From Heterotrichella gracilis (Eukaryota; Sar; Xanthophyceae; Tribonematales; Xanthonemataceae): a stretch of DNA of 64,000 bases. The position numbers were made by a program, and so were the translations under genes. How positions within the stretch are numbered: the stretch's first letter is position 1; each line of letters starts with the position of its first letter. Shown piece by piece: positions 46 through 64,000 of this stretch. The notes below the pieces were generated by a model that was given only the letters and a program-made list of their open reading frames with translations, was not told the origin of the DNA and searched no databases. The stretch covers positions 1-64,000 of the forward strand of contig JAULBX010025497.1 of assembly GCA_032358255.1 (NCBI GenBank), read 5' to 3'.

Positions 46-3000
46 GCGCCTGGTTTGTGTGGCACCACTTTGGGTTCCTGGACGTGCAAGTGGGGGGCCT
101 GGAGCTGCACTACCTGTGCAAGCTGGTGGTGCTGGCAATGGTGCCTGCGGGGATGATACCCGGGCTGCTGCACGCGCATGCGCAGCCGGGGCTGGTGTCG
201 GTCATGGTGGTGGCGCAGGTGGGTAGTGGGGTGGCGGTGGCGGTGGCGGTGGTGGTGGTGGTAGTGGTGTTGCTGTGTGTGGTGGTGGTGGTGGTGATGG
301 CAATGGTGCCTGCGGGGATGATACCCGGGCTGCTGCACGCACGCGCGCAGCCGGGGCTGGTGTCGGTCATGGTGGTGGCGCAGGTGGGCGGTGGGGTGGT
401 GGTGGTGGTGATGGTGGTGATGGTGCTGGAACTGCTGCATGTATGTGCCCGCTGGGGGCTGGTGTCGGTGGTAGTGGTGGTGGTTGTTGGGCTGGGGTGT
501 GTGGTGTGTAGGCTGGGTGTGCGCTTTTGGGGCTGATACCGTACCCGCAATGCGGTACTGTACGTGCCATGCCTTGGGGCACATGTCAAACCTCCTCTGG
601 GAGATCTTCAAAATTCGTGAAAAATCAACTCACATCTCAACTTAATGCAGGCTGCGCTCTTGGCCACATTGGAAGAGCACCTGTATGCTGGCGAGCACGA
701 GGGCGAGCCCACCGAGATGTACCCCCCCTACCTGGTGGCGGCAACCTCGGTGGGGGGTCTGGCCATGGTGCACAAGCTGGTGGGGGTGGGAGCCATGGGG
801 CCGCTGGGGGCGTGGCTGGCGCGGTGCATGTTTGTGGCAAAGATGGCGATGGTGCTTATGCCTGTGGGGGCGCTGGAGGTGGGTGGGCGGTGGTGGCGGT
901 GGCGGTGATGGTGGTGGCAAGTGGGTGGTGGAGGTGGTGGTGGTGGTGGAGGATGTATAGGGGTTGGTCTAGGGTTGGCCAGGTGCCTGTTTGTGGCCAA
1001 GATGGAGATGGTGCTCATGCGGGTGGGGGCTCTGGAGGTGCGTGGTAGTGGGTGGGTGATGGCGGCGGTGGTGGTGGTGATTGAGTATGCTAGGGTTGGC
1101 CAGTTGCATGAGATTGTGTGTATTACAAAGGGTTGTTGCGCTGTTACTGAAGGAGGCTCTGGAAGTGCGTGGCGGGGTTTGGGTAAGATTGGTAAGGTGT
1201 GGGGTATGTTGCTTGTCGCTTCACCACAGATGAACACATGCATGCGTGGGATTGAGTGCTCACAGGCCATGCCTGTCTCCCTCCCACATACACAAATTCC
1301 TCTTACCCCCTTCCTCCAAACTCCCGCAGGCTGAGATGTTCCTGCCCACCCTAGCCCTGTGCCTGGCCATCTCCCCCCCCCTGCTGCTCACAGCCACTGA
1401 CCCAGCAAAACCCTCCCGGCGACGCCTCAAACCCTACCAGGTATGGGGGGGTGCTCACATGGCTTTTCTGCACATGCAAGCTTGTTTGTGCTGGGCCTGT
1501 TGCCCTTTTGGTAGCCACATGTCTAGTTACATGCATTGCACATGCGGTGGCAAGATGTGTTGGTCCTGGCATTGCCATACAAGATAGTCACATGGGTGCC
1601 CATGCCATTCCCTGTGACCTGTATCCTGGAGCAGGAAAATTCAGGGGTGGCGGTCAGCGTTCTCACCTTTTGTGACTGTACCTCCTTCTCCTTTCATTCC
1701 AGGGCATTGCGCTGGCTGCCGCGGTGGTGGTGGCAGCCCTGTACGCGCGCTTTGCCATCTTTGATGTCGCGCAGTACGTTGGCAGTGGCCGCCCCAACGA
1801 GGGTGTGCTGATCGGGTCGCTGCTGCTGGTGGTGGCGCTGGGGTGCCTGCCCCTGGTCACGCGCTGCTATCCTCAGGTGAGGAATATATCGAGAAATATG
1901 TAGTTGTAGGAATTGTGAAGATGTTGATGAGTTGCATGTGTTGTAGTGACGCAACTACCACACATGTGGTTTGCGTGCATCATCAGCGCTCTTCCAGGGA
2001 TGCTCCACTGCATCGCTAAGCCACAATCTAAAAACATCTCAGACGACGCATGGCCATTTACTTGACTCATGCCCTCTGCCACCTGACTGAACTCCTGCAA
2101 TTTTACTGTACTGAGTCCTGCCCTCTGCCTCCTACCCACAGGCCCAAGGGCCCCGGCGAGCTCTTGCCATGGTGGGTGCTGCTGCTGCGCTGCTGCTGCT
2201 GCTGCGGCCGCCGCTGCCCATACAGGTGAGCCCTAAACCCTACACGTTGGGCAGTAAACCCTACGCTGCAACGCTGGTGGGTGCTGCTGCTGCGCCCACC
2301 ACTGCCCTCAAAACTAGACACACGCAGACCCACCGATTGACATAAATTGTATATGCTGACCTCGGCAAGGGGGTACACAGGTGTTAGCATTTGTACTGCA
2401 TGTCCAGCATGTTAATGCGCCACCTCCCACCGCCCACCTGCCCCTCTGCCCTGTCCCTCATACCAATGCCCTCCTGCCTCCTGCCCCCACCCCAACCCTT
2501 GCATCCACCTTAATTCCCTCTCCACACCCCACCCCTTCATCCTCCCACTTATTCCCCGCAGGGCGCCTCGGACTGCCCCGACTTCCTGCCCTTTGGCCTG
2601 TGCCCCCGCCTGTGGGACGAGCGCCACGTGCCCGACCAAGGGGAGGACGACGTGGCCATATACGGGGAGGGGCTCACGCGCAAGGACCACTGGCCTGTGT
2701 GGCTGCTGGTGGCGGCAGGTGGGGATTGGTTGTTGTACATTATACGTTATTTTGTTGGCGCGGTCTGGGCGCCATGCTTTGCATCGGAGGCGCTTTTGCA
2801 TGCCTTGCTGGGGTTGAAATTGCAATGTCCTGAACGTGCATATCAATCCACCCAACTGCAGCAGGATTCCATCATGATCTACGGTGGTTCTGCCTATTTT
2901 TAATTCCTCCACATGAGTTGACTTGCTTCTCGACACTGTATTGAACAGGCCGTGTGGTGGAGGCAACCACCCAAATGACACTGCGTTGCATTGAACCCGC

Positions 3001-6862: not shown

Positions 6863-9800
6863 ATGTCCCGTGCCGTGGTCTTTACCACCTGGGTTTGGCC
6901 TTTCCTGCTGCTGACACACAGCTTACTGGCACACGCGCAAGGTAAGTGGCGCATGCTGCTTTGCGGGCACTGTTTTAGAAAACCCAAAACACACCATCAC
7001 ACACACTGGGTACCTGTGCATTTAACCCTTGATGTTTGTCTTACTCGGATATTGAAAGCAACGTTGACCAGGCTATCCCATTATTTGCCAATGGTACACC
7101 CGTGCTGCAGCCACTGGCCTTGTTCCCAGTGGCTCTAGTGGAGGTGGTCCTCGATCCCCACCACATCAGCTCCCTGTATATCAGAGCGTCCGGTTGCATC
7201 CTGATGTATGATCCAACGTGGGACCTTGCATTTTGACTTGGCATCGACCCGCTGGCGTGCTGGGCTTGGACGCCTGTCGGTGTAACTGTCAGTGTATATC
7301 CGTTGACATCAGGGTTGACCGACTACCCTCCTAGCGCCCTGAACCTAAATCCCACACCCCAAACCCCGATGACCTCAGCCTAGACTGACTACCCTCCGAG
7401 TGCCCTGAACCCTAAACCCTAAACCCCGGTGACAGCTAAGCTAAATCGACTCCCCGTCTGCAGATGGTGGGCACCCCTTGTTGGCGCCCCACAATACCTC
7501 GCACCATGCTTCAGCAAGGCTGCAGCAGCTGGCAAGCTCCCTCACCGCCAAACACCCGCCCGCACACAACCGCACCCGCACCTTCCAAGGGGAGTGGCAG
7601 TACCTCCTACCTGGCGGCCACCTGGTGCTGCACCCCACCCCAGCAGACAAGGTGGCCTATGCCATCAACGTCACCAGCGACCTCAGCCTTGTGCGTTCCA
7701 GCCACAGGTGCATAGATGGGAAGGTGGAGCAGCACAGGTGCGGGCAAGTGCACGGAAACCCTAAACACTGATTAGTCCCAAAACCCTTAGCCCTAAAGCG
7801 GTGATCAGCGTAGGTGAGGGCACCGCTGCTAAGACAAGACCCTAACCCCTTGAAACCCTGAAACCCTAGAGAGTGAAGCAGCGCAGATGAGGGCACTGCT
7901 ACTACGATGAGTCAGCGATTGTTTCCGCGGGGTCACTTGCTTGGACATCAGGGGGAATGGTGTCAAAGCTCGTCTACCACTACAACAAACATTGTCTTTA
8001 GATACTATTAAGTAGCTATTCAATCTGCAGCTGATCTCCTTTGTACAAATTTTCAGTACCTACTGTGCACAGCGCGCAAACCTTTCAGACTTTCTACGCA
8101 AAAAATAGAAGATTCATTCTCAATTTTAGTAAAATTTCAACCTCTTGCAGGGTTTGCGCGTTGTTCAACACCGTGCTGCACCGGGGCAAGCTGTACTACA
8201 TCTCAGAGGCAGAGGTGCGGGTGCCGCCGGTGCACATCCAGCTGCGGGAAGAGATAGGTCTTCATGAGTGGCTCAACCTCACCAGCACCCACCCTGATGC
8301 TGCGCCCTTTCTGCAGTCCACTCCCGTGGGTGCACAGGTAGGGTGCTGCAGCATCAGAACTTGAATCTTCAGAAAAGAGCTTGGGCAGCATCTGGTTGAC
8401 ATAGGTGACAACTGTCAGTGACAATTAGGCTGGCAGAACATGAGTGGCTCACATTGAGCGGCATCCCTCCTGGCTAGCAAAGAGGCTTTAAAGGGTCTCA
8501 GGGTTTAGGGTACGCTGGTGCATGAGCAGGTGCTATCTGGAGTCCACTCACGGCGGCGCAAAGGGTGCTTACCGTTCCAGCACCACAGCACCGAGTAGAG
8601 CTGGGAGTGGGCTATGACCAGATCAGTACTCCGCCCTACATGCCCTGCCCTGCCCTGCGTCAACCATGTCCTGGCACTGCCTTTCCCTTATAGCCAGTGG
8701 CGCTCCAAAACTTTGCGAGCTCATACAACCAAGGGAATTGCACGCCATTTCAAGTTTGCACACGTGCAGGTTGTGGAGTACGCCGCGTGGTTTGTGGTCC
8801 CGCGCTTCAACAACTTTGCACACATGATGGGGGAGTACGCCGCCACCCTGTTAAACGTGGTGTGCAAGTACCTAGGGTATTGCAAGCACAGGCCCAGCTC
8901 CAGGCTGTGGGTCATCGTCCCTGAAAAGAGGGGGAACGGTGCGTGGACAACCTTTGACTGCTGTCTCTGACCATACCTCTACACGCAGACACATTGGTTG
9001 TTCCTGACGAACACTGCTATTGGCACAACGGGCATTCTAATGGCACAACATCATTATTGATTGCTTGCTTGGATGACTGGCTGATTTGGCATCATGTCCT
9101 TTGGTGTGCCGTGACTACTCACGGACATTCACCCCTAAACCCTAAGCCCTTAACCCTAAACCCCCGGTGTGCAGGCACTAGTTTGGACATCCCCCCAAGC
9201 ATGGAGGCCGCTTTCCGCTGCATCGCACCCAACCATCTGGTGCTGTTTGAAGACCCTGCCATCTACGACACCGCAATGGTGCTGCTGACCATGGTTGTTG
9301 GCATTGGGCCGGACTGCAGCGCCCATGGCTTCTGTGTGAACAAGGAGCAGCTATCCCTCCCGGGGAGTGTTGAGATCACCGATTGGCAGCGCGTGGTTAT
9401 GATGCAGCCGGTGAATGTGCTGTGGAAGGAGGCAGTCATGCAGGTAGGTACCAGGTCCTCTGGATGTAAAAGCAAGGGTCAGGCATCACAAACCCGACAA
9501 ATACCAGGAATATCAGCTGCGTAACAGATGGGTCTTGGAGAAATTTGCCTGCTCACTGTTGAGATCACCGATTGGCAGCGCTTGGTCGCGATGCAGCCAG
9601 TGAATGTGCTGTGGAAGGAGGCAATCATGCAAGTAGGTTTTTAATTGGGTTAGATATTAAGATGGCACATTGTTGGCTAAATGTTGCACCGGCCACCAGA
9701 GTTTAGGGTTTAGGGTTCCGGAGTTTCCTCACATCTGGGGTCTCCCTGCCGCAGTGAGTAGGACTGGACGTTAACAAGGTGGCGCATGTTTCACCAGCCA

Positions 9801-12452: not shown

Positions 12453-15063
12453 TTAACGCTTCAAAGTATATTGCAGTGCTCGCCCATTGGTGCAGGGCAG
12501 ATATGGGTGCGCCCATTGCGGCAAATCCTCCGGGTATCGTGGAAAAAACGCCTTCATATCCCCACCCAAAGGGTCACCACCCTCCTGCATTTGGCCCCCA
12601 GGTGGACGCTCCAACTGCAGAAACCAGAGGTCATGCTGCACCATGGCCACCAGCTTGCGCCGCAGTGTGGTGGCACACACCGAATGGAAAAACAGCAGGT
12701 GCTCGTCGCAGGGCTTGTAGGACTTGGCATTGGGGCACTCCCAGTCCGGACGCCCTGTTGTGTGGCGGCAGACAGCCACCTTGCCTTGCGCCTTCACTTC
12801 CTGGCATGTCGCCCTGTCGGAGCAGTGCTCGTAGGTGCCTGAATCCGACCTGCGCGTCCACAAAATCAGTGGATACATTATCGATGATATTCATTTTAAT
12901 GGTTAGACAGGTACATATGCAACCTTTCCTTAAACAGTGCTGGTACGCGCCTGGATTTGACTCATGTTATCTATTTGTTCACATATATCAGTTCCAGGTG
13001 AGTATGGCCACCTGTTTCAATCATATTCCCACCGATGCAATTAAGAAATTTTAAAAGCGTACACCGTGAGTCCCAACGTAGCCCCGGGCAATGCGGCGTA
13101 ACGTGCATATGCGCAAAGCTCTGAAGGTTTCCCCTCCACTACCTGAGCGTCCACAGGAAGTGCTGCTCGTGCACAAAGCTGCCAGCCTGGTCCAGGCTGC
13201 CCGCCAGCCGGTCCCAAACCCTAGGGTCCGATTGTTGGGCAGCACCACGTACACCCCCGTGTTAACGCTCTCCCCTTCCTCCGCAAAGATGGCATCGCAG
13301 TGCGCCACCCGCACCATCGCCAGGTAAGCATCCCATACGGGGTGCACGTATACCACGTCGATGTCGCTCCAGTGCAGCGCGTAGCCAAGCCGCAGCGCGT
13401 CGTTGGCCAGGGCCAGTTTGCAGAAGGTGATCAGCCTGTACGGCTGGTGATCTGCATCTGTGTTGTTCCTTGCACCCTGGAAAGAACAAAAACAGGTACA
13501 AAAGACGGAAAGGGGAGGAAAAATCATTGGCCATCGCCAGCTTGCAGAATGTGATCAGCCTGTACGGCTGGTGATTGGCCTCTTTGTTGGGGCTGTTTGG
13601 GGCTGCGCTGCTGTTGCTCGTGGCGCCCTGCAGGAGCAGAGATGAAAAGGAAAGAAATACAAGTAAGGGAAGGAAGAGAGGAAATAGGCTCCTGGAGCCT
13701 GACAAGGATGGAAGGTACATACGGCCTCCACAGAAGGCGGCACACAACACACCAGCAAGGATGAGAAACACCCAGCGCTAGCAAGGCAGTGAGGGGAACA
13801 TGCCATGGGGTAGCAAAGGCAATGCACCCGTACCTGGCTGGCGTATGCAATGATAAGGGTTTAGTGTCTAGGATGACAGGTTTAGATCTGCTGCTGTGCC
13901 TGTGGCGTTGTAGCAAGGGAATCGCCAGTGCATGCTTTAGGGTCTAGGATTAGGGTTTAGGGTTTATGGCGTAAGGTTTAGCATACCTGGTTGGCGCGCG
14001 CGAGGGCCAGGGCGAGTCCTGCTGCAGCGCCTGTTGCATTGTAGCAAGGGAAGCGCCAGTGCATGCACATTGCACATTTCCAGGGAGCTGTCGTCGAGCG
14101 CCGCGATGACAAAGGTGTTCACGCGGCCGTACTTCACCAGGCTGTAGATACAATTTAGCGGCATTGGTGCCTGCAAGGATTGGGGTTTAGGGTGTGGAAT
14201 GTAGGGTTTGAAAGGGTTCCTTAGTTGTGCACGCGGCTGTACTTCACCATGGCCAGGTCGTTGTGCCAACCCTCGTAGGCCAGGGCCTGGTACCCTAGAA
14301 GCCCTAGAATGCACCAATGAGCTCCAGAATGCCCCTGACAGCCCACTAGACTTTGCCTGCTCTACCAGCCAGTCGCATCTATTTCCCCTCCTACCTGGTT
14401 TGTGGTGAACGTGAGCATGGTGATGTAGTGCCCGCCCAGCGCCTGCGTGCGCAGCAGCATGGCCAGGTTGTTGTGCCAGCCCTCGTAGGCCAATGCCTGA
14501 TACTCTGGTAGCCTCCAGGGGGCAGCATATGTGAGGTCAACAGAGGCGGAGGGCATACCACCTGGGAGCCAGCAGGGTTTAGGGATTAGGGTTTGGTCAA
14601 CAGGGTGTAGGGTTTAGGGTTCACCTTATAGGTGCCTGCAGGATTAGGGTTGTGTAGTTTGGGTTTACGGGTGAAGGTGTAGGCCAGTAGGGTTTTCAGG
14701 GTTTGGGGTTCCACCTTGGTGCCAGTAGCGGGAGTACAGGGCTTCCAGTTTGTGCGCGCCTGGCACCGCATCTGGGGGCTGCGCAGATTGCAGCTGGCGG
14801 GGGCTGGCTGGGTGGACGGCCAGCACCACAAATGCAGCAAAGAGACCTGAAGCGGTAGGGGTAGATTTAGCATTTTGAAGGCAGAGGGCGTGTGCTAATG
14901 TGGTGCACTTCTGGTTGGGTGCAGAGCATGCATTGGGATGGAGTGAATGCTCAGCCTTGCAGGACAGTGCAAGTATACAGGTGAAGACTGCTAGCATCCA
15001 GTGCAAGCGAATTTCCAAGCAAGGTGTTGGAAATAAGTTGCGTCCACGCACTACAGTGATCAC
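12453..15063 (-). CDS. GT77-type nucleotide-diphospho-sugar transferase, frame-damaged
   Basis: Minus-strand exons in reading order: about 15063-14715 (N-terminal hydrophobic segments), 14561-14395, 14170-13987, 13476-13143, 12849-12453 (stop). Conserved pieces are 'VNTFVIAALDDSSLEMC', 'YRLITFCKLALAND', the DxD-type 'WSDIDVVYVHP', and 'NTGVYVV'. This matches the Nucleotid_trans/GT77 family of Golgi wall glycosyltransferases. Two breaks are visible. Exon 14170-13987 is one base out of phase with the next exon. In exon 13476-13143 the frame must shift at an AAACCCTAGGG motif (13216-13226) to continue as '...FVHEQHFLWTLR' and join the last exon in phase. It is either a young pseudogene or affected by sequence errors. 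A partial copy of exon 4 lies at 13517-13629. Confidence 0.76.
13517..13630 (-). repeat. Second copy of the start of GT77 exon 4
   Basis: It repeats the acceptor and first ~80 bases of exon 13476-13143 ('HQPYRLITFCKLAMAND' versus '...LALAND'), but with a longer Ser/Ala/Asn-rich start. It could be an alternative or abandoned exon, since it leads to no complete downstream frame. Confidence 0.7.
13883..14300 (-). repeat. Further partial copies in GT77 introns
   Basis: About 13883-13940 copies part of exon 3 (14013-14068). About 14245-14300 copies the GGCCAGGTTGTTGTGCCAGC region of exon 2 (14457-14512). TTTAGGG-like runs lie close by at 13949-13975 and 14578-14622. Confidence 0.65.
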
Positions 15064-34632: not shown

Positions 34633-34739
34633 CTGCGAGGTAGAACAGGGAGATTAGGGTTTAGGATTGTGCATTTAGGGTTGAGAACTGGGATGGCTTT
34701 TGGGAGCTGAGGTAGAGGTGTGGAAGGGGCACTCAATGC

Positions 34740-35440: not shown

Positions 35441-35591
35441 ACGCATGGCAATGCATCTAAAAGAGCAGTGTAGTTACCTGCGCGTGACTCATGTTCGCCT
35501 CAGGCTGAGGCTCACTGAACAGGCTGCCGTGCTCATGGCTACCGACCATACTGCCAGACCCTGGGCCAATAGCTGTCAGATTGCTGTCTGA

Positions 35592-46413: not shown

Positions 46414-49112
46414 ATGGAATCACGGGCTGTTGGGGCCATTGCCGCAGTTGGGTCCATCCTTTGTTTCGGAAGCTTTGCTGTGCCAATCAAGTCAAAAGCT
46501 GTGCTCAATGCCAAGGTAGGGCATTCACATTGGCCTCACCCAGCATGCCCATATTTCAAACAGCCAGCAGAACCTGTGCTTGCTTTCTCACAAATCTACT
46601 GTAGAGCAGGCCTCAACTGCCGTGTTGCCTCCAGGTTGACCCCATCATCTACCAGAACTATAAGTCTCTAGCTTGCTTCCTGACCTCATGGCTTGTCCTG
46701 ACCTATGTGGACTTCCGGTTCACATGGTGGGGCGTGCTAGGAGCTGCAATATGGGTAAGAAACTGCCTTCCCACCGCTGGATAGAATGTGCACACCGTCC
46801 ACGACAGGCGTCCCAGCTACAAAAAATGTTGTGTAAGCTACCATGGCCTTGGCGCCTGCAACCCAACTCATCTGCAGCGCTTCTCTGTTCTTTTGAGATC
46901 AAAAGCAACACTCGCCTTTCTGTACAAAGGAAGGAAGGGAACACCCAGGGCGGAACTAGGGGGCCAAAACCCAAACTACACAAAAACCTTAAACCCTGTT
47001 CACCCGCAGGTGGTCAACGGCACCGTGGCCATCATGGCGGTGCAGCGCTCGGGGCTGAGCATCAGTCAGACGCTGTGGAGCAGCCTGGGCATCTTTGTGT
47101 CGTTTGTGTGGGGAGCATACGTGTTCAAGGAGCCCATCAGGAACATACCCATATCAATTCTAGGTAGGCTGCTGCTGTGAAGCAGCACTGGAAGCAGGAC
47201 ATACGGTACCTTTTAGTGGGCACATGCATAATGCCCGCATGTGTTGCAATTCAATGGCTTTGATTTCTTAAGGTTGAAACCTTTTTCATGCCATACCCAA
47301 AATCTTGCTTTGCAAACATCGTTCTGGGGTATCAATTTCAGCAGCTTGTCTCGCCCATCAGCTCTGACATCAAATTCCTTACACATAATTCAATGCCATC
47401 CTAGCCTTGCAGCAAGGGTTTTGAACAGAGTATATTTGATTCTCGTTTTATACCCCTTGCCTGCAGCGCTCGTGATCATGGCAGTAGGCATGGCGGGGCT
47501 CGGCTACGCAGCCACCATGACCCCCCGGCACAGCAACAAGGGGGATGACGACAGCGATGAGGAAGGGGAGGGGACCAGGCTGTATGCAGGCGACAGGCCA
47601 GACACTCAGGAGGGCGAGGTGGCAGGGGGGAAAAGGGGTGTGGAGGGGAAGGGCGGGAGGGGCGAGGATGCGCGCCCAGCAGCAAAGGGACGTGGGGAGG
47701 GCCAGGCTCGGACAAGGTGTGTGCGATATTGAGAGTATCAAGGGTTGCAAGGGTGTCATGCAGCCTGCACAAGGTGGCCAATGGTGCCGCTCATACACCC
47801 CACAACTGGTTTTTGGCTACAGTATGCTCTGGAACCAACAATGAGCTCGTACCTTACCATGCATCACCACCCACACACCTCTCCCCATGCATCAGGGTCT
47901 GGGAGGGCATCGCCTGGACCACCTATGCGTGGGTGGCTGCTGAAATGTTCTCTGGCTTTACTGCCCTGGTGCTAAACAGCCTAGCCCTAGCAACGCCCTG
48001 TCACTTTGAGTGCCCAATCATGCACCACCAACCCATAAAACAAACATATCCTCCCCGTGGCTCAGGTTCTGGGAGGGCATCGCCTGCGCCACCTACGTGG
48101 GGGTGGCCAACGGCAGCTTTATGGTACCACTCAAGTATGCCAACAGGACCGTGAAAGGAGCAGAATATTTGGTGTCGTTTGGCATTGGCTCGGCGCTTTC
48201 GTCACTGGTATTCACCTTGATCCACTTTGCTGTGGCGCGCCTGCGGAAACGGTGCGTGTGAGCACTTCCATGGAGCAGCTGCAGGGTTGGCATGGCATGT
48301 TGTGAGTGGCATCCTGTGCAGTGCCGCTGTGAAGCTGCCTGCATGATGCATGTCGTCACATCGGCCGCTCTGAACCTGTTGCACAGACTTTCCTCCTTGC
48401 CACATTTCCCATCACCTCTCCAATTGCATGCCCCAGCCCTCCTCTCACTAGATACGGATACCCCTTTTCAAGTCCATGCCCTTCTTTTACATACCCACCT
48501 TTTACCCCTTGCAGGCCCCTGCCCTCCTTCCACCTAGCCACAGTCTCCCGCCCAGCCCTCCTCACGGGCCTGCTGTGGAGCGCCGGCAACTTCTGCAGCA
48601 TATACACAACCGAGGGGCTGGGCATGGCGGTGGGGTGGCCGCTGGTGCAGTGCAACCTGATAGTGAGCACGCTGTGGGGGGTGGTGTATTATAGGTAGGT
48701 GAAGGGGTGTGCGTTCTATGCTGACATGCCCTGCTGGAAAAGAATGCAGATCATATAATATTTATGTAAAAGTCACTGTAAACGGTGTGGGCTTAATTTA
48801 TTTGGCCTGCATCGTATTGTGTGTCCGTTGGAATACAATTTGAATCATCCTTGGATCATCGAGCATAGTCTCATTATTATGGTACACAGGTTGGTTGCAA
48901 ATCAACAAGTGGTATAGACAGTGCTAGGACCAAACTGCATAGTGCGCATGCGCAAGGCTGACTGCCCATCCAACTGCATTGCTGGATTAAGTGGAATAAT
49001 TATGTAAATGAAATGCAGGGAGGTGGAGGGGGTGAGGCCACTGGTGCTGCTCCTGGCTTCAACCACGGTCATCCTGGCGGGGGTGGTGCTGCTGGGACTG
49101 TATGGGCTGTGA
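46414..49112 (+). CDS. TMEM144-like multi-pass membrane transporter
   Basis: Seven exons give 361 aa: 46414-46515, 46635-46754, 47010-47163, 47467-47716, 48066-48251, 48515-48694, 49019-49112. Hydrophobic spans fill both halves: 'GAIAAVGSILCFGSFAVPIK' at the N-terminus, 'GTVAIMAVQRSGLSISQ', 'GLLWSAGNFCSIYTTEGLGM', and a final span ending at the C-terminus. Between the halves, residues about 144-208 form a charged Gly/Glu/Lys loop, as in DUF1632/TMEM144 proteins of the drug/metabolite transporter superfamily. The family is thought to move carbohydrates; the substrate is unproven. All junctions agree in phase. A partial copy of exon 5's start lies at 47885-47950. Confidence 0.87.
47885..47950 (+). 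repeat. Copy of the start of TMEM144-like exon 5
   Basis: It repeats GTCTGGGAGGGCATCGCCTG and following bases of 48062-48125, with its own CAG acceptor but diverged coding. Confidence 0.8.
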
Positions 49113-49972: not shown

Positions 49973-52046
49973 TCAAACATCTTTCCGGAAGTACGCAATG
50001 TAATTCACCGCCACATCATCAGTGAGACCCCATTGCTGCGACAAGGGGTGGTACACCATGCCTGCCAGCTGGCGGAAGGAGGTGGCCTCTCCCACATGCA
50101 GCAACATGGCCATCTCGTCTGAAGGCATGGGGAGAGGGAAGCATGTAAGGATGCCATCAATGCACAATCCCTCCAAAGCGCCATTCACCGAGTTGTGCTT
50201 TGAATACCGATGTGCAGTGTGTGTGGGGAGCCTTTTTGCCTTTCTACCACTCACGCATTGCAACATATCAGGTGCATACCATCAAACACTTGTGGTATCA
50301 AGCATCCGACAGACATTCAGGAATGTTGCTAAAGAGTGCATGCAATAATTTAGCCAGATGTTGAGTTGCTGTTGCAGGCCCCCCACCTGGAGTGACAAAG
50401 CGCGTCCAGTCATGCGTCCCGGGCGGCACCATCCGCAGCACGTACTCAGCAGCAGCAATGGCCAGGAGGTAGGAGCGCGCAGTGCGGTTGATTGTGGACA
50501 TCAGTATTGCGCCCTGGGGCCGCGTCAGTCCCCGCAGCGTGTCGCAGAAATCCGACGGCATGCGCACGTGCTCGATGATCTCCAGCGCACACACGGCATC
50601 AAACTGGGCGCCTGCCAGTGGAGCATGATAGTGTGAGCTTGCAAGGGTGTGTACTTGACAATTCACGCACCACAGATATTGTGTACATGCACGTGGTGGC
50701 CATAGTGGCGGGGTGGGCATGATACGGTTGCATGTGCAAGAGGGAAGGGAGGCCCAGGGTTGCACTAGGGCATTTTTTCTCACCTTCCTCCAGCAGCTGC
50801 TCTGCTGTGCCCTGGCTGTATGTGATGCGCTGCGCTGTGATGGGATCCCTGGTGGCGTGCACCCGCGCTGCAGCAATGCTGTCAGCAACCATGTCCACAC
50901 CAACCACCTCCGCACCCAGGCGCGCTAGGGCCTGCACACAGGTACTTCCAAATAACGAGTTATTTTTCTTCTTGTTAAGAATGTCCCATGTTAGTCGCCT
51001 GCCCACCCACACAGGCCAAGGCTTGCACACATAACCATACATTAGCATAAAACCGCAGGTCTATCTCACTCAGCAGGCCCTGTTACCATAAAACCGCAGG
51101 CGTACCTCACTCAGCAGGCCCCCACCACAGCCCACATCCAGCACGCGCAGCCCTGCCAGAGGCTCGCGCACACACGGGTCGAGCCTGCAGGCACATGAAT
51201 TTGCATGGCAAAACGTCACAGCTGAGGCAGCATGTGCAGCGCACAAGGGGTGGCATTATTGATGCCACTACAGAATCGGTGAGAATGAGTTAGGAGGGTC
51301 AAGGCGTGGTTCAGGGTACAGCAGTTAGCAGGAACTGCACAAGTCCAGACCAGCACCATAAACCATGCCGTAGATTGGTCAGATGCACCAACCAGGCCTG
51401 CGGCTCCCTGGCACAGCCCTTTCAAAGCTTACCCAAAGTTGTCGCACAGGGCGTGGCGGATGAAGGTGTTGCGGGGCGGCGCCATGGCGTGCAGGGCGCC
51501 AAAGGGCCCGCGCCTGTCCCACCACTGTGCAGACAGTGCCTGGAACTTGGTGTGCTCCTTGGGGTCGACAGAGGGACCTGCTGGTGGGCTGCGTGGGTGT
51601 GCACTGGCCCTGCAGAAGATGGTGCAGTCTTCAGAGGCAAATATGCCTCCGATAGGCGAGTTCAACGCTGTTTGGGTTTGAGATAGCAAAACTTTGCTAT
51701 GTAAGAAGGGAAGTGTATGTACAGCTGGCCGGCGGTTGCTGTGAGGTTGCTGTCTCTCCTCAACCAAAGCACAACGGCTAGGAGTGCTCTGAACCACTCA
51801 CCTGTCATCTTGGCCTGTGCTCCTTGTTGAGGAGGTCGAGGCAGCAGCTGTTGATAAGCACCTTGGGTGAGACTGTGGTGTGCACGACGCAGCGCTGAGG
51901 GAGCTGAGAGGAGCTGCGGTGCTGGTGGAAGCCTTCACAAGATGTGGCGTGAGACAAGCCTTGGCGAGGGAGGCCAACACCCGTGCCTCTTTCTCTTTGG
52001 CCATTGGAGGAGGATGGGTAGACAATGGATGAAGGTCAATGGGCAA
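49973..52046 (-). CDS. COQ3: Ubiquinone biosynthesis O-methyltransferase, mitochondrial (COQ3/UbiG)
   Basis: Six minus-strand exons give 339 aa: 52046-51802, 51609-51433, 51184-51106, 50931-50784, 50611-50387, 50118-49973. A second in-frame ATG at 52004 would give 325 aa. The N-terminus (~80 residues) is Ser/Ala/Thr/Arg-rich, as expected for a mitochondrial presequence. The UbiG signature follows: 'FQALSAQWWDRRGPFGALHAM', SAM motif I 'VLDVGCGGGLLSE' (about 155-167), 'GAEVVGVDMV', 'FDAVCALEIIEHV', 'INRTARSYLLAIAAAEYVL', 'THDWTRFVTP' and a C-terminal 'GMVYHPLSQQW'. It methylates the two phenolic hydroxyls during ubiquinone synthesis in the inner-membrane CoQ complex. An extra copy of an exon 3/intron border (CTCACTCAGCAGGCCC) sits at 51065-51081. 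Confidence 0.94.
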
Positions 52047-53003
52047 CGGCGCTCTCTAGAAAGGATGGCAGGAGTAAGCTGATGACCGTTTGCATGCATA
52101 TATATATATGCAGTCACCACCCACCGGCATGCACTCGACTGTCCACTTTCACCTTAGCACCAAGTTAGCAGACAGCCGATAGCTGGTAGACGACTCTGAA
52201 GCATAGTGGGTGGGAGGTGGGAGGTGGGAGCACTTTGCGTACTTCGTACTGGGCAGGAAGTTTTCAAACGTTACCGAGCCGTCGAACAGGGTGTCATATG
52301 CATGCATGCATTTTCTCTGCCATATGCGTGCATGCTGTATGCTGCTGATTCTAGTCATGTACAACAAACGATGCAACAGCGTACCCAATAGCTACACCTT
52401 ACTACAGCTAGAGTACTGAGCACGGCAGCGAACCCCAGTGGCTTGAGCCCCAAGCTGTGGCGACCATGGCTCTGCAGGTACCCATCCATGCTTCTACGTT
52501 GAACCAATCCTGTGACCCACTTGGCTAGCACCAGCAAGCACCACCTGCACTATGTACCTGGGTTGTATGATTTCAGGCAACCACCAGCAGCAGTGCAGCA
52601 GCAGCCCATCAAGTGCCAGGGGCTCCACAGCCTGTCATGCCCCAGGTGGGTCGCAGCATTTTGTACAGACGCAACTGTGCTAGCCTGCTTGCTTGTTGCA
52701 GCCAAAAGTCACACACCCTAGCTTACAGAGCTACACTGCTGGCTGGCACTCTTCGCCACTGTAGCTCAGCAAACCCCGCATCATACAGTCAGGCGTGAGG
52801 CGTGGCAACAACTGTCCCTCTTTGAATTTCTTCCCAGCTAGAGCCACGAGTCCTTTGTGATGGCTTGCTCACACCCATCTCAGTTGAGACAGCCCTAAAT
52901 ACCCTCCCCGCACCTCTCCCTCAGCTCCCAGAGGCCAGGCCATCCCAGTTCCCAACCCTAAACCCTAACCCCTAACCCCTATCCTCCCTGTTCTGCCTTG
53001 CAG
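52047..53003. other. Upstream region of COQ3 (-) and MYND copy A (+)
   Basis: A possible first mini-exon for the MYND gene is ATG GCT CTG CAG at 52466-52477, followed by GT, in phase with exon 53004; this is speculative. About 52910-52950 copies the start of exon 53004 and runs into a CCCTAACCCCTAACCCC stretch (52955-52980). Confidence 0.45.
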
Positions 53004-56000
53004 CTCCCAGAGGTCAGGCCAGCCCAGTTCCCCAACGTGTACAGCGCACTGGTCAAGACCAAAGCGCGGATGCTCGACTGTGCAGACCAGATCAGCCCGG
53101 AGGATTTCGGGCACCACTGTGAGCGCGTCTCAGCCCACTTTGCCCAGCACCTGGTGGGGAAGGTGAGGCACAGGGGTGCAGGTGCAGGGTGCATTCAGCA
53201 AACATGCGTCCTGCCGCGCGTTATTATCCTGTCTGGTATTATTTTACTGTACCATGTGGTTGGCAAGTTTGGGGAGTTGGCCACAGTAGCGTATGCATCA
53301 CCAGCAGTGCTTGTCATATGTAGTGTGGAAGTGTGGAAGCCAACCTGGCTGTAGATTTCAGTGATGAAGGTAGGGAGTGTGGAGGTCAACCTCCGCTTTG
53401 GCATGGCGGAACTTTTGCTGTGGAAAGGATTCCATTGCGGTGGTGTCATTTATTTCTGACCCAATCAAACATAAGAGTAGCTGATTGCTGTGTTATGGCA
53501 TGCACCCGAGGCATGCGCCCGAGGCATGCTACCCCAGCATGCTGCTTTATTGGCTTTCATTGCTTGCTTTGGGTGTGGCTGTGTAGGGTGCTGCAGGGCA
53601 GGAGATGCGCGCCGCAGTGGCTCGGGAGATACTGGCTGGTGGCTGTGAAGGGAGCTGGATGTGGGCGCAGCTCCTGAAGAAAACTTCCGACCTCCTCCCA
53701 CCACAGCCGCGCATTATGCTGGGCGAGAGCTGTGTCGCAGCTGCCGTGGTGTATGTGGTGTCCCAGGCAACCGTCCAGGAGTTGTTTAGCGGTAGGTGGG
53801 CTGCTGTAGACTTGGCAGGCCGGAGGTCTGCACCTCGTCCGGCACAAATTCAAGTTGCCGGGCTACATTGTGGGAATTGATGCAAGAAGTCATCCCGTGT
53901 TGCTGTTTTGAACCTACTCAATGGATTGTGTACATCAAGGTCCAAATGCACTGCTTTAATATTCCTGTAATATTCCTTCCTTCCTTCCAAATGCACTGCT
54001 GTTGAAAATGCGCCATGCAATCATTTGACATGAGGTGGAGATATATTATTGGTGTGGCCTTGTAACAATTCTATTAAATTGTACGTTCGTGTATGCAGAA
54101 ACTATCGGTAGATGCATCCCATGGTAATTAAATGTGGTAGATTGGGTCCAGCTATATATATAAGGTACTGGGGTCGTATCAAGAGTTATGCGGTACTCCT
54201 GCCTTGTGTGGGACACATCATATATATGGGGGTAAATTCATGCAAATTTAGTACTGGATCCAACATTTCAGCAAAATAACTGCTGGCGTATTACTATGGG
54301 ATACCCATACCCTGCAGACAACATTCTCTCACAGCACTTTGTGTCTGCAGACGGGAAGAGGCTACATGTATGCTCCTGGCCATTTCTGGGGTTCCTGGCA
54401 AACTTGGGGGACGCAGTGGGGCTGAGGCAGACCATGTGGAGCAATGGCCAGGTGCACATGGCAGGGGCCTTGGTGCACCGCCTCCACAGGCACTTTCAAG
54501 CACACCCTATCTCTGAGCTGCAACTGGAAGACACCAGGATTTCATCGCGGCTACTTGGGCTGGGTGATGTGATCCAGATGCTGCTCTCCACAGTCACTAC
54601 AGGTGAACAGTTTTAGGGGAAATATAACATATCACGGGTAGCGTGTAGGCGTGTGAATGTTGTGACGGGTTAAATGCCATTTGGTTCAATCATACCTGTT
54701 GGTGCACTTCAAGGCAATCTGCATCTGTGATAATCTGCAAATGAAGGCAGCCAAACATCCCAACCTGCAACGTACCAAATCATAAAGCAGCAGGCATTCA
54801 ACTGGCACCTCTTGCATGTTCAGGGGTGGACTCGGCAGTGCGCAACAAGGAATCAGGTTGGGGTACTATGCTGTCAGATTTGTCGTTAGAAGACGAGGAG
54901 CACAGGGAGCACGGAAACAAGGCTGGCAGGTACATTACCCCATGCCTAGTGAACAACTCGTGCCTAAATGCACTGCCAATGTTTTTACTTATTGTCCGTC
55001 ATCAAGCCCACCTGTTTGACTTGCAAAGAACATCTGGCGTTTTCTTAAGCCTTGCATATCTCTGCACGTTTGCAGGTGGCTCATTCAACAAGGGTTGCAG
55101 TACCAATTGGCATCTCTCCTTGCTGACCTGGCAAACCTTGGCGGCAACCCACCTGAAGAATCCAGAGGTTACAGAGCGATCGGCGCTCTTCAGGCGGTGG
55201 TATTCTCCCCTAGCCTGGGCATCATTCACCTCCTGAGGGGCATCTTCATGCGTTTTTCCGGACCAGAGGCGTGCAGTGCTGACACGCTGTCCTGGCTTGA
55301 TGGCCAGCCTGACTAAGCTGTACAATGCTCCTGCATGCAAGGGCTTTATGTACCTCCAGGCTGTGGGGATGTTTTATGACAAAGGCTGTGGAGATGTTCC
55401 ATGTACTAATCCAGCTTTGCATAGCGGAAGCTCGACACACACAGTGTGCTCGCGTATTTGACAAGAAGATTCCTTCATGACTGCAGTGAGCGGCTCAACG
55501 ATGGCTTTTGCTGTCAAAAGCTCTGTTCCTGCAAATACCATTAAATACCGTAGTTCCAATGGCGTGTGCTGTGTTTCAGCGGATCTTGACTCAAAGGTAA
55601 GCTTTTTTGCAGTACGTTTCTGTCTGCGTCGCAGGTGCCGGTTGCGCAGACACAGGATGATGGTGCACGGATCATGGCCTGCTGGCCCTTAACAACATTT
55701 TGTCACAATCCCTTGCAGCTCACCCTGTTCAACAAGATTCGGCTTCACCTTCAAGCCCAGTCAGACAATCACCAAGGGCAGGAGATGAAGAAAAGGAGTT
55801 TGTGAAGGCGTTGCATGGGTCTGGCTGGGTTGCCACTGTTCACTTTGTGGGGTTTGCCCGAGCCCCTTGCGCGCTTCAGGGAGTGGATGCATTCTTGGCA
55901 GTGCAAGAGGCGGGTGTTGGACCACAGGTAAGACAAATATTCCGATGCAATTGGTGACTGCTTGCATCATTTTGAGCGCCTGCTGAGATGGGCATGGGCA

Positions 56001-56781
56001 CCACATATTGCTTTGCTACATGGCTGGAAGCAGCAACCTTGCTTTTTTGTTTTGACAGCCACTAGCCCAGTGATTGGACACTGCTTTCAGTCGCATCCAT
56101 CAGATCTCACAAAATAGCCTGGTGGCAAATTGGTTGCCCCATCAAATTTTGGTTGCCAGCGTTCTTCCACCTTTTTTGCTTGGCAGGAGTTGAGGGAGCT
56201 GCGCACTATGTCCCATTCCCTGGATGATGGCCATCACCTCATGCTGCTGCCCTTGCCAGCGACAGACTCGGTTGTCTGTCTGTCTGTTCTCGGTAGACAG
56301 ACAACCGAGCGTGTAATCCCAAACCCGCCTCCTGCTTTCCAAGGCCCCCGCCCCGCCTGTGGTGGCGCATGCGCTGTCACTGGTGGGCCAAACCCTGGTG
56401 GGGTGGGGCAGGGCTAGTGGGGCCCAAGGCAGCCTGTTGTGCGCCCAGTTGCAGCCACCAGCACCTTCACAGCCAGGGGGCAGGCGTGCCAAGAAAGCGG
56501 CTGCGGCGCTGACTGTGCATGTGCTGGTGGAGGATGTCAGCGCTTTTATGGCAATGTCGATGGCATGGGGTGATGTCACATGGGAGAAGGTGACGGGGAG
56601 GTGGGAGAAGGTGTGCTGCCAATGCGGTTCCAGCCCCACTGCTGGTGAACCCCTGCGCAAGTGCAAGTGCGGCGGTGCCTGGTACTGTGGGCGCAGCTGC
56701 CAGGTGGAGCACTGGAAAGGGGGGCACAGGCAGCAGTGCAGTGAGCGCAAGGGGGGAGCATCCCGGACCAACGCAGCTTGA
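53004..56781 (+). CDS. MYND-finger protein, copy A (internally reduced, frame-damaged)
   Basis: Supported exons are 53004-53162, 53587-53791, 54351-54602, 54824-54929, 55079-~55179, then a stretch to ~55360 with a frame break, ~55718-55928, and 56187-56781. The true 5' end is uncertain. The C-terminus is a MYND zinc finger (C-x2-C, C-x-C, YC-x3-C, HWKGGH-x3-C; 56617-56750). The upstream part is Leu/Ala-rich helical, armadillo-like. Compared with copy B, a T5 run (55253-55257) has one extra base, the long helical exon after 'MYLQAV' is missing, and the frame is interrupted by an inverted repeat at 56267-56309 unless 56269-56343 is spliced. MYND domains bind proline-rich partners; the role here is unknown. 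It may be a decaying paralog. Confidence 0.62.
56267..56309. repeat. 15-bp inverted repeat in the last exon of MYND copy A
   Basis: Arms 56267-56281 and 56295-56309 are exact reverse complements (CTCGGTTGTCTGTCT), with a 13-base loop. Copy B has no equivalent at this place, so it looks like an insertion or local rearrangement. Confidence 0.8.
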
Positions 56782-60139: not shown

Positions 60140-63100
60140 TCACTGCGTTGCCTTGGTCCGGGATGCCCCCCCTTTGCGCTCGCTGCACGTCTGCCTGTGG
60201 ACCCCTTTCCAGTGCTCCACCTGGCAGGTGCGCCCACAGTACCAGGCACCCCCGCACTTGCACTTGCGCAGGGGCTCACCAGCAGTGGTGTTAGCACCGC
60301 ACTGGTAGCACACCTTCTTCCACCTCCCAGTCACCCTCTCCCACGTGACATCACCCCATGCCATTGCCATCGCCTTCCACGCACTGACATCATCCACCAG
60401 CACATGCACAGTCACCGCAGCAGCCTCTCGCTTGGCACGCCTGCCCCCTGGCTGTGAAGGTGCTGGTGGCTGCCACTGGGCGCACACCAGGCTGCCCTGG
60501 GACCCGCCAGGCTTGCCGCACCCCACCAGCGTTTGACCCACAAGTGACAGTGCCTGTGCCACCACCAACGGGGCAGGGGCCTTGGAGAGCAGCAGGCGGT
60601 TGCGCATGTCTGGCTCTGCCAAGGACAGTGCCAAGAGGTGGTGGCCATCCTCCAAGGACTTGGACATGCTGCGCAGCTCCTCCCACGCCTGTAAACAGCA
60701 CACAAGCGTGCAAGGTTTCACATCTGCTGCTGTCCGCCACTTGAAAAGCAACCTGTGCTCCAATGCAACCCAAACCAGAATTCACAATGTGAGCACCCAT
60801 CAAATTGGAAGTTTGGCTAACCTTTGGTCCAACCCCTGTCGCCTTTGAAGCCAGATATGCATCTACTCCCTGTAGCGCAGCAGGAGCTTGTGCAAACCTC
60901 ACGAAGTGGACGGTGGCAACCCAGCTAGACCCATGCAGCGTCCTCACATACTCCTTCCCATCACTCTTGCCCTTGCTGTCTGGCTGATAGCTTGGCAATG
61001 TAAGCCAGTATTGATGACAATACTCTGAGCTGTGAGGGTTGTCACCAGTGCTGTTAAGTGTTAACAGTAAGAGGGGCAGTTTGTATGCCATGCATGCACA
61101 AGGACAACATAAATGCACAACATTTTGCCATGAAGGAATCACTGACCAAAATCTACCTTTGGGAAGATGTCTTTTGAAACAAAGCACACACCCTGGCTAC
61201 CATTGTAAGAGATTGTGTCGTGAGGAAGAGCGGTATCCAGCCCCAGAGGCACCACATTAGTAATCTCTGCAACATCAAGTTGAAACAGTGCTCATTTAGA
61301 TTGGCTAGAAAAGGCAGCAAGGGCAATGGCCAACAGCAGCAGCAACCTAATGCCATGATAGAAAGAAAGAAAGGGACGCAAATGCCATGCATAGTAGATG
61401 ATGCTGCATCTAATCTGGTGCTTCACCTATCCTTGCAGATCTTTAAAAAAATGTCGTTCTTACTCTCATTGCATCCAAATGGTGGCATGTTCACGCAGAT
61501 TATTTTTAGTAGCCTTATTACATTCCTTAACTATCCCACATAGCCTCCCGTCCAGAAATGTGATGGCCTCCACCACATTTTGATATTTTTTCAATGCCCA
61601 TTCAATGGCAGTGCCGGAGATCACATACCTGTCGAATGGCAACACATACTAGCATACCATTTCAAGCATGGCAAAACTTGGCAGGTCAGGGCAGTTTAAC
61701 ACAGAATTGTCCAAAGAGACCATGTTCAAAAGGTAATGAAATAAAATGAGATCAATGAGATAAACGCATCAGTTTTCGCAAAGATGTTCGCCATCGCAGG
61801 AATACATTTTAGCACCCAGTCAAGTGCAGATGGGTAATATGACATGATTACACCTTTTGTTGACAATATGTGACACCATAGTATAGTGTGAAAACACAGG
61901 AGTGAGGTTCAACTGCACCTTGCAATTCCCTCGATCATCTGTTTAGTAGTGTAGTTGACATGAAGCGCAAGATGAGGCACCTCCCAGGAGCTAGCAGCTA
62001 CACTCAGCATCTCCGCATGCGTGGTTTGGTTGGGGCCACCTGCCACCAGTGCCTGCACCAGTGCTTTGAGGAACCCATGATGACACAGCATCAGTGACAG
62101 CTTTTTTGGCACCTGCAAAGGATACATACATTGCAATCCCATGCATAGGCTTTATGGGATTAGGTATCAGGAGGAATAGCTTGTGACAAACCATCATTTC
62201 AGCTACTTGCCAGGCATATGCTATTTGCACAGCACTGGCAATAGGACCAGCCATTTCACACAAACACCCCAGCACATGGCACCCCTTACAGAACCCTACC
62301 TTATCTCTCAACCTTGAGACCTGCCCTGCATGCTCTCGCTGCTCAACATCATGCATCGAAACATCTGCATCATGTACAGTTCTGCGTACTCCGTTTCTGT
62401 TGCAGAAGGTAGGCAGGTAGAGGGGCTGCTGAAGTGCTCAAGAAGGAAGTGGCACAAAGGTGCAACTAGCTTGTCCTGCAACAAGGTACACTGCATCATG
62501 AGATGATGTTTGTGCATGAGAATGCAGGATGCCGGGCAGGATCCAGTTGTATTTGTCTCTGAGAAGTGATCCAAACTGTGCTTGAAGACTTCAGAACATT
62601 CACACCGTCACTGCCTCCTACTGCTCTTACCTCCATAGTTTCATCATCCACCTGACCTGCTGAGGTATACATATGCATCAGAACAAAAAGCGCCTGTTCA
62701 CATAAAGCCCTCGCCCCAGCAATGCCACCTGGCGCATCCCTTGCCAGCGCCACCTGAGCCAGCCAGGTCACCAGCTCCCCAAGGGCATCACCATACTCTG
62801 CCAGCGGGTCAACACCGTCCCCACGGTGTAGCGCCTCGTTCTTCATTAGTTGCAAGACAGAATCCACCTGGCGAGCTAAGAGGCACACTATGAAATCATC
62901 TCGATCACAAGGCTCTAGTTTTTTGGGACCCTCTTGGAACATTTTCGCCATCAACAGCCTGTGGTGATGCTCTGATCCCGTGAGGAACTGCACTGTGCTG
63001 GGCAGCTTCAGCAGCGCTGCAGCCGTTGAAACACTCTCTTCAGAAGCCAACTCCTGGAACAGCTGCACAGCCTGTATGTACATGAGGCCCTCGCAGCCTA

Positions 63101-63560
63101 GAGCGCTGTAAGCTGGGTCAGGCTGGCCATCAAGTCAGGATGGCGTGTGAGCAGCAACGGCCTCTGCTCCGGCAGGCGAATGACAATGACCCTGCAAACA
63201 TCAGTAATGCTCTCGATTGTAAACATTCTCCTGGCCTCCCATTCATCGACTGCGCTTGAGGTACTGTTTTGATGGGGTGGGTTGCCTCCAAGGTGTGCCA
63301 AAGCAACAAGGAGGTCGACCAACTGGTCCTGCACTCCTTCCTGGATGAGCCACCTGCAAAGCAAACAGGCCTGAGCACAAGCAATGGAATCTGGTGCCTG
63401 ATGCTGTTCAAAGCAGGGGTCAGATGACCAGTGATAAGTAATAGCTTGGCTAGTCATTTCTGGCATGCATTGGAAGCAGCCACAGATTTGGAGGGGCCTG
63501 ATCTACCTGACAACCATGTTCCCATGCTGCTTATGAGCTTCCTCCTCTAAGGACAGATCC
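60140..63560 (-). CDS. MYND-finger protein with armadillo-like helical region, copy B
   Basis: Minus-strand exons read: ~63560-63507, 63353-~63260, ~63192-63105, ~63105-62631, 62475-62313, 62112-61919, (unclear 61850-61640), 61628-61495, 61266-61157, 60983-60822, 60688-60140 (stop). The long middle exon is Leu/Ala/Glu helical ('SVSTAAALLKLPSTVQFL', 'ALGELVTWLAQVALARD'). The last exon ends in a complete MYND finger: C-x2-C-x11-C-x-C, YCGRTC, HWKGVH-x3-C. Alignment to copy A shows one base missing near 63110, between 'DLMASLTQL' and 'LGCEGLMYIQAVQLF', shifting the frame. The start is beyond or near the window edge. Function unknown; MYND proteins often act in transcriptional repression or chaperoning. 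Confidence 0.72.
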
Positions 63561-63586
63561 GTCAGCATAGCAGCCCAACACACTCC

Positions 63587-64000
63587 GTGCCTTTCCTCTC
63601 CTGCACAGTTGAAGGTGTAGGGTTTAGGGTGTAGGTACGGTGCCTTTCCTCTTCTGCACAGTTGGGAGGTACAGGCAGGTGGATGGCCGCACACAGCACA
63701 TGCACATGCGGGCTGGTGGCGACGTACTGTCCAGGACTAGGATGAAGGGATGAAGTGCAGGTGCGCGTGAATCGGGTGCCATGGCTAGTACATGGGTTTG
63801 GGACATCAGTGCACGATGAATGAAAACAGGTATCAACACATCTCACGTGGTTTTAAACATGAATAGCTCACCTAACGTGATGGCGGACAACAGCAATCGG
63901 ATGTAGGGTTTAGGGTTTTGAACATGAATACCTCACCTAATGGGATGGCGGCCAGCAACAATCGAATTTAAGGGTTAGGGTTTTGAACATGAAGAGCTCA
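63587..64000 (-). repeat. Tandem border repeats at the window end
   Basis: GTGCCTTTCCTCTTCTGCACAGTTG occurs twice (~63588-63612 and 63640-63664), separated by GTAGGGTTTAGGG. A ~75-base unit (TTTTGAACATGAATAGCTCACCTAA...GGCGG...CAACAATCG) with GTAGGGTTTAGGG joints is repeated at about 63850-64000. These resemble the exon-border duplications elsewhere and suggest a further MYND-gene exon just beyond the edge. Confidence 0.7.

Follow-up and report, generated by a model that had tools for sequence, protein, structure and literature searches.

The stretch of DNA analyzed here, hereafter the window, comprises the opening 64 kb of C299, a contig of 259 kb in the 68.5 Mb, 903-contig assembly of the xanthophyte Heterotrichella gracilis and holds intron-rich genes whose introns carry, in various stages of decay, direct copies of the edge of the adjacent exon together with its splice site, often separated from that edge by sequence resembling the genome's own telomere repeat. 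Gene models were obtained with a purpose-built hidden Markov model (HMM) gene finder trained on the window and on 18 further loci fetched from the same genome. Each of five window proteins that were checked, one of them trimmed by hand from a fused model, has a Pfam match, the families being FAD_binding_4 plus BBE, methyltransferase, cobW (fused by the model to TMEM144), PP2C and Nucleotid_trans.

At the 5′ side of introns the copied element is an exon end with its donor. Thus, the exon end at 9368–9449 (+), whose used donor lies at 9444, recurs with 91% identity in the intron at 9557–9638 (+), the similarity reaching 6 bp into the intron, and the FAD/BBE oxidase gene has an exon at 23507–23629 (+) whose end is copied at 23677–23751 beyond a telomere-like tract. 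Two further donor-type pairs, both 93% identical, occupy 24529–24819 (+), with AACCCTAAACCCTAAACCCTA in the spacer at 24619–24729, and 27722–28062 (+), with GTTTAGGGTTT in the spacer. Exon end and donor are present in about three copies with TTTAGGG-like tails at 18425–18830 (+) and in three copies at 28568–29103 (+), where the donor is at 28679. In the methyltransferase gene, a tandem copy of 41 bp (51042–51121, −) lies at the donor end of exon 51106–51184; it was recognized by eye from Tandem Repeats Finder (TRF) output and the exon model, and stands outside the pairs counted below.

At the 3′ side of introns it is the exon start that is repeated. The Nucleotid_trans gene, so assigned by Pfam, has an exon start at 13400–13465 (−) with a copy in the upstream intron at 13524–13589 (86% identity), the acceptor lying 11 bp past the aligned end. 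Acceptor-type pairs are also found at 19435–19767 (+; copy 19435–19569, exon start 19632–19767, acceptor 19696), at 32373–32624 (+), with AAACCCTAAAC upstream of the acceptor in each copy, at 47881–48107 (+) in the TMEM144-like gene (acceptor 48066), at 52922–53032 (+), 94% identical and with a spacer opening with AACCCTAAACCCTAACCCC, and at 20622–20946 (+), where the copies are 90% identical and both are modeled as exons; in the one PDB alignment seen there, to the best match EncM, the alignment stops at the start of the second copy of the peptide. A series at 23790–24322 (+) repeats the start of the exon that opens at 24323 in five decaying copies, with CCCTAAA-like sequence between them; the copy cores lie at 23810, 23921, 24020, 24120 and 24241, and the exon's own core at 24349. 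An earlier note on the window, made from its letters, had put the number of copies per exon edge at one to five, a range that this series bears out.

The frequency of such pairs was determined by self-BLASTN of each of 19 sequences totaling 223.7 kb (the window and the 18 loci), every locus being compared with itself and not with the others. Copies less than 1.5 kb apart were classed as local and those at least 1.5 kb apart as distant; the search yielded 108 local direct pairs (median offset 141 bp, median length 67 bp, median identity 84%, with identities spanning 72 to 100% among the pairs listed) as opposed to a single distant one. When each of the 19 sequences was submitted to one dinucleotide shuffle, no match at all was obtained, which rules out chance similarity. 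Within the window all 31 direct pairs with E < 1e-3 are local (offset range 65–431 bp), and the settings adopted later gave 36 local pairs and none at least 1.5 kb apart. Local inverted matches number 22 and were resolved, by script and manual classing, into 16 palindromic foldbacks, four telomere repeats and two ordinary pairs. Palindromic inverted repeats of 58 to 233 bp lie in predicted introns of the window at 28126–28183, 19093–19325, 20345–20452 and 22398–22538 and are possibly small foldback elements.

Seven of the 18 loci (L011, L015, L017, L021, L022, L024 and L027) had been picked around telomere matches; the window and the 11 loci not so picked, among which L018 adjoins the window, form an unselected set of 12 sequences. 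L012 (contig C100, 20001–30000) was excluded from the counts as a bacterial contaminant: it has 35% GC and seven intron-free open reading frames of at least 150 amino acids, bacterial-looking by eye, and the 109 kb contig, of which these 10 kb were examined, is probably a contaminant. Subtraction of the window leaves 32 pairs in 89.7 kb of unselected loci, from which simple scaling would extrapolate to some twenty thousand pairs genome-wide. A genome search that scored the best candidates only and skipped very common words found a full match of 23700–24500 at its own locus alone; the 16 other matches, of 33–54 bp, fall in the telomere-like parts, the only parts that this array has in common with other loci. 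Of an introner or other mobile intron element one would expect similar inserts at many unlinked sites; the two spacers searched in the same way (one being 9450–9556) each matched itself alone. The earlier note had named as telling against it the case that copies be equally common between unrelated loci; as far as these partial comparisons reach they are not, one of 109 pairs within sequences being distant and the array matching in full only at its own locus.

The association of the copies with exon edges is pronounced. A predicted splice site is touched by 73 of the 108 pairs, against 40.3 ± 5.3 under a random-shift null that reached this number in none of 500 shifts; this count omits introns at locus ends, the strand-typed count being 76 site-touching pairs. 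In the youngest class (identity of at least 88%), 27 of 39 pairs touch a splice site and nine are all-intron. A detection bias by which exon copies remain visible longer is insufficient alone, because the association persists in this class and because simulation (below) fails to give the short intronic part observed. Furthermore, the arrangement is directional: the used donor lies only in the first copy in 32 pairs and the used acceptor only in the second copy in 32, while the reverse types count one pair (donor only in copy 2) and none (acceptor only in copy 1), so that in 64 of 65 single-type pairs the repeated edge has its copy on the side facing the intron; 11 pairs are of mixed types and 32 of the 108 have no site on the gene strand.

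Among 277 predicted introns, 64 have a copy at an edge, and of 142,279 bases of intron 13,960 fall in duplicated blocks. When introns of at least 150 bp are compared, those with copies exceed the others in length (medians 400 and 310 bp; n = 60 and 187; p = 3e-4), a contrast to be qualified because a longer intron has more room for a pair. In the window, 21 of 84 introns contain part of a pair. Not every pair is of this kind: for nine of the 36 window pairs the nearest predicted splice site is more than 15 bp away from both copies, as with a TGG-rich repeat in one predicted exon (124–425) and the all-intronic repeat at 43565–44024, and the pair 23646/24297 consists of telomere repeat only. The sequence at 43565–44024, three copies inside one intron of the cobW-like gene and free of telomere tract, is another kind of duplication. 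What the earlier note had stated in general terms, namely that introns carry copies of the adjacent exon edge, those ahead of an exon repeating its start and those past it repeating its end, and that local duplications carrying a splice site have occurred repeatedly and at various ages, thus stands and extends beyond the window. Its figure of at least nine genes was not reproduced at the threshold used, pairs being found in six of nine predicted gene units, with 51042–51121 adding a seventh by eye; some HMM units fuse neighbors (cobW and TMEM144), which qualifies the count.

The intronic copies decay neutrally. In the 68 of the 76 site-touching pairs that could be analyzed (the remainder being of other types or offering less than 24 bases of aligned exon), the copies differ by 0.101, 0.083 and 0.167 at the first, second and third codon positions, the pattern expected of one free and one constrained copy. 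Indels affect the exon part in 20 of the 68 pairs and shift the frame in 12, and an in-frame stop occurs in two of 48 ungapped copies. The splice site of the inner copy, here termed decoy, is intact for donors (GT) in 15 of 16 young and eight of 14 older pairs and for acceptors (AG) in five of six young and eight of 19 older pairs, which indicates that the copies were born with an intact site and later lost it. Compared with a neutral estimate of 83%, decoy donors show no departure (23 of 30 intact, p = 0.24), whereas decoy acceptors have been lost faster (13 of 25, p = 3e-4). This comparison rests on 55 pairs (30 donor, 25 acceptor), the continuation test described below on 51 of the 68, the breakpoint set on 56 and the spacer set on 54; overlapping arrays, pairs with very short or very long spacers and those at locus ends were left out of these subsets.

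The spacers between the copies are new sequence, in part telomeric, a feature that, like its strand bias, the earlier note had missed. Known telomere repeat types of green algae include TTTAGGG and TTTTAGGG. Here at least six contigs start with (CCCTAAA)n, (CCCTAAA)6 lying within the first 10 bases of C70, C140, C526, C609, C717 and C770, so that this is the genome's own telomere repeat, and the tracts between copies match it. The exact telomeric 16-mer occurs 3052 times genome-wide, as opposed to a single occurrence of the reversed sequence used as control; the genome also encodes a telomerase RNA-binding domain. In the window, telomeric 9-mers cover 680 bases as opposed to 0–61 for 39 permuted-unit controls. 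Over the whole sample their coverage rises from exons (0.07%) through intergenic DNA (0.55%) to introns (1.56%) and reaches 8.3% of spacer bases, against 2.7% in the intronic outer flanks, 35 of 89 spacers containing them. The unselected set behaves alike (spacers 7.3%, flanks 3.0%, introns 1.3%; a tract in 19 of 56 spacers), and 24 of its 51 duplicated blocks contain a tract, the nulls being 9.1 (reached in 0 of 2000 shifts) and, when centered on introns, 10.2 (0 of 1000). In the window alone the effect is weaker: 7.5% of spacer bases vs. 4.5% of flank bases, and a tract in 10 of 25 blocks against nulls of 4.3 (reached in 22 of 2000 shifts) and 4.9 (14 of 1000). By alignment score, 23 of 54 spacers (15 of 36 unselected) are telomere-like as opposed to 6.3% of 1000 control intron segments, and direct copies thus flank a telomere-like insert in these 23 cases. 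Finally, telomeric 9-mers are present in 37 of 60 introns with copies and in 47 of 187 others (p = 6e-7). Head-to-head telomere repeats, TTTAGGG meeting CCCTAAA, were also seen at an internal site (L014, 471–507).

The orientation of the telomeric sequence depends on the end of the intron. On the sense strand, the last fifth of introns contains 588 bases of CCCTAAA and 33 of TTTAGGG (399 and 9 in the unselected set), the first fifth 318 and 293 (202 and 93); correspondingly, telomere-like spacers at acceptors have the C orientation in eight cases and the G orientation in none, and those at donors the G orientation in nine and the C orientation in six. Sense CCCTAAA has neither AG nor GT and TTTAGGG has both; selection against false acceptors would explain the C bias at acceptors, since TTTAGGG carries AG. 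Independently of this, introns devoid of telomeric 9-mers have G-runs past their donors and C-runs ahead of their acceptors, so that outward-pointing telomere DNA imitates the context usual for this genome's splice sites. GGG is more frequent downstream of used donors than of decoys (3.30 vs. 1.87, p = 0.011; young pairs 3.81 vs. 1.69, p = 0.019).

The ends of the copies bear on how they arose. If a whole unit had been doubled, the intron sequence past the copied donor should recur past the second copy; intron-side sequence recurs detectably in six of 51 testable pairs and does not in 45. In young donor pairs (n = 17) the matching stretch has a median reach of 59 bp on the exon side and 6 bp on the intron side, while random breakpoints simulated and searched in the same way (median identities 86–92%) give an intronic median of 26–30 bp, with 30–39% at 20 bp or less. 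The intronic part is at most 20 bp in 15 of 16 non-overlapping young donor pairs and in five of six young acceptor pairs (p = 1.7e-7 and 0.011, respectively, against 0.30); the contrast is smaller when all ages are taken together (donor pairs 71%, n = 31; acceptor pairs 56%, n = 25; simulated 30–51%). Nor do the copies in general lie end to end as tandem duplications do, a few arrays excepted. Plain tandem duplication, the origin to which the earlier note had ascribed them, therefore does not suit most of the pairs; continuous arrays such as those at 18425–18830 and 23790–24373 probably grew by a second step. As for the intron gain and growth that it had envisaged, growth of existing introns holds and gain finds no support: at register 0 none of 268 introns reaches 27 identical bases out of 50, the mean being 14.84 compared with 14.46 when the pairings are shuffled. 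A register-0 repeat being the trace expected of a staggered break or of an AGGT duplication, the finding of none points to enlargement of existing introns, with no sign of creation.

Taken together, these data are probably best accounted for by break repair that duplicates an exon edge around a filler, often telomeric, the survivors being those that keep a working outer splice site. According to this scenario, breaks in genes would be mended by an error-prone repair leaving the same 30–130 bp at both ends; a staggered or processed break whose ends share sequence fits, since the copy–filler–copy geometry is almost only direct. The ends would then be joined through new filler DNA, often a short run of the cell's own telomere repeat, of which telomerase would be the simplest source, captured telomeric DNA being another. 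Where the duplicate spans an exon edge the outer splice site would still be usable and the extra copy with the filler would become intron, the inner copy being thenceforth neutral and decaying along with its decoy site. Filler near the outer site may help, as donors here are marked by G-runs and acceptors by C-runs and telomeric TTTAGGG/CCCTAAA could supply both. By such a splicing filter exon-edge duplicates would survive and coding-interior ones would not; short intronic parts may also be favored by it, as identical donors would compete unless the filler gave the outer one an advantage. Repeated rounds would result in stepwise intron growth. Of all this, the copies with their geometry and neutral decay, the content of the filler with its strand bias, and its agreement with the splicing code are observed, whereas break repair, telomerase and the splicing filter are inferred.

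Several points weigh against this scenario. The filter alone does not require copies to end so near the splice site, and random breakage does not predict it either. The splice sites are without exception predicted, by an HMM for which this very sequence served as training set; as the used sites were selected by that HMM, comparisons of site strength favor them in part for this reason. Members of one array are not independent of each other, the 108 pairs merging into 77 blocks. By score, 31 of 54 spacers have no telomere tract and tract strength is independent of copy age (Spearman 0.07, p = 0.60), so that telomeric filler is common and not universal; telomeric tracts, moreover, also lie near the edges of introns without detectable copy, where they could be old events or reflect a splicing preference. 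The fillers at donors being of both orientations (9 G, 6 C), the outward-G rule of telomerase priming is not strict. Lastly, backing for the splicing filter is weak on the acceptor side: used and decoy acceptors do not differ in pyrimidine content (0.66 vs. 0.63, p = 0.10) and, for CCC runs, differ in older pairs only (4.00 vs. 2.05, p = 0.005; young 4.00 vs. 3.67, p = 0.75).

The proximity of the copy ends to the splice site would find a reason if the end of the break or of the copying were set by the splicing machinery or by the site itself, edges undergoing repeated breakage or copying no more than about 10 bp away from it, with nascent RNA or an R-loop as possible sources, and being healed with telomere repeat. 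Some 10 bp at a splice site is the span covered by U1 or U2AF. We advance this possibility tentatively, as one less probable than not by a good measure; if true, introns would grow by a splice-site-anchored, telomerase-assisted process and not by random duplication.

It is unlikely that plain tandem duplication of random segments followed by unequal decay, with a constrained exon copy and intron parts diverging twice as fast, produced the pattern. The pairs are direct and local and their exon copies constrained, as this would have it, the arrays at 18425–18830 and 23790–24373 are continuous tandem repeats, and in simulation the intronic part does shorten somewhat with age; with intron-side continuation in only six of 51 pairs and young donor similarity ending at a median of 6 bp, where simulation gives 26–30 bp, it falls short, and the telomeric spacers are left unexplained. 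Still less can be said for the telomere-like tracts having come first, as splicing signals or fragile intron sites triggering duplication beside them. Edge tracts do exist in introns without copies, and interstitial telomere tracts are described as breakage-prone (PMC11626172), yet tracts are denser between copies than in intronic outer flanks (a difference smaller in the window alone), and a prior tract within the duplicated unit should persist on the intron-side flank.

Strand-annealing repair by capture of nearby DNA at a break in the intron, whereby a copy of the exon edge would be pasted in with filler, is an improbable explanation. Distance, copy length and filler are like those of a vertebrate class of duplications (PMC2671141), and 108 of 109 pairs lie within 1.5 kb; capture in either orientation nonetheless predicts as many inverted as direct copies, and 108 direct vs. 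two ordinary inverted pairs were found, with 64 of 65 single-type copies on the intron side of their edge. Finally, it is very improbable that selection maintains the inner copies as functional alternative ends of exons, with the exon part kept and the intron part lost: this would explain why similarity stops at the splice consensus, why in-frame stops are few (two of 48) and why some copies are modeled as exons (20656–20727, 24717–24809 and 27973–28050), but codon positions 1 and 2 differ about as for one neutral copy, frameshifting indels affect 12 of 68 pairs, decoy sites decay with age and the best PDB alignment of the FAD oxidase, the one alignment seen, spans the repeated peptide once.

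Other features of the window and genome may be recorded here. Two paralogous reading frames in inverted arrangement, each with a terminal zinc finger that by eye is MYND-like, lie at 56344–56781 (+) and 60152–60688 (−), and a 12-bp tandem repeat with 100% matches falls at 44586–44617 in a histidine-rich coding part of the cobW-like gene. The chlorophyll a/b-binding family has 43 exon-level matches in the genome, an LHCII-like protein is also encoded, and the RuBisCO large subunit has no match in the assembly. Together with the intron richness of the genes, the chlorophyll a/b-binding matches and the LHCII-like protein would of themselves suggest the green lineage, a green alga or something near it.

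Break repair with an exon-edge duplication around filler, the scenario preferred above, has known relatives. Mammalian interstitial telomeres inserted at double-strand breaks have a flanking duplication in six of 130 rodent and four of 25 primate loci (PMC2246262, Table 1); in both systems a short run of the cell's own telomere repeat sits at an internal site, sometimes with such a duplication, whereas here the copies are exon edges of about 30–130 bp, frequent in the sample, associated with splice sites and biased in strand according to the end of the intron. Vertebrate repair-mediated duplications (median 147 bp, maximum 619 bp, junction filler 1–68 nt) resemble ours in short distance, short copies and junction filler, but there (PMC2671141) the donors classed as "partial exon/intron" number four out of 824 and a duplicated exon is reported to be inverted in one case, while here the copies are mostly exon edges, nearly all direct, with telomeric filler in 23 of 54 spacers. 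When introns are gained by tandem genomic duplication (PMC3443670), a splice site is likewise carried along in a local duplication; here, on the other hand, the copies are mostly not end to end, no AGGT-register intron is seen and existing introns are enlarged. Direct repeats near intron borders, linked to break repair (PMC11782384), are 4–30 bp long and derive from comparing both borders of an intron; common to both cases are direct repeats at intron edges tied to break repair, our copies being longer and pairing one exon edge with its own intronic copy. A literature search that reached the titles and abstract openings of the best matches found no prior report of exon-edge copies with telomeric filler. 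Telomeric insertion at breaks and local repair duplication being already known, exon-edge copies around telomeric filler are a new variant.

Intron lengthening is poorly understood. In Chlamydomonas and its relatives comparative genomics found introns to be conspicuously long, and the passages of that study considered (PMC8226300) name no driver of their length; in the present sample, 64 of 277 predicted introns retain a recognizable copy of an edge. Identities vary widely among the pairs listed, so that the process can be placed in time and seen at work. As proposed here, it would link telomere repeat synthesis to gene structure, in that telomeric DNA by coincidence resembles the sequence that this genome prefers at either end of its introns, a point that lends itself to direct testing.

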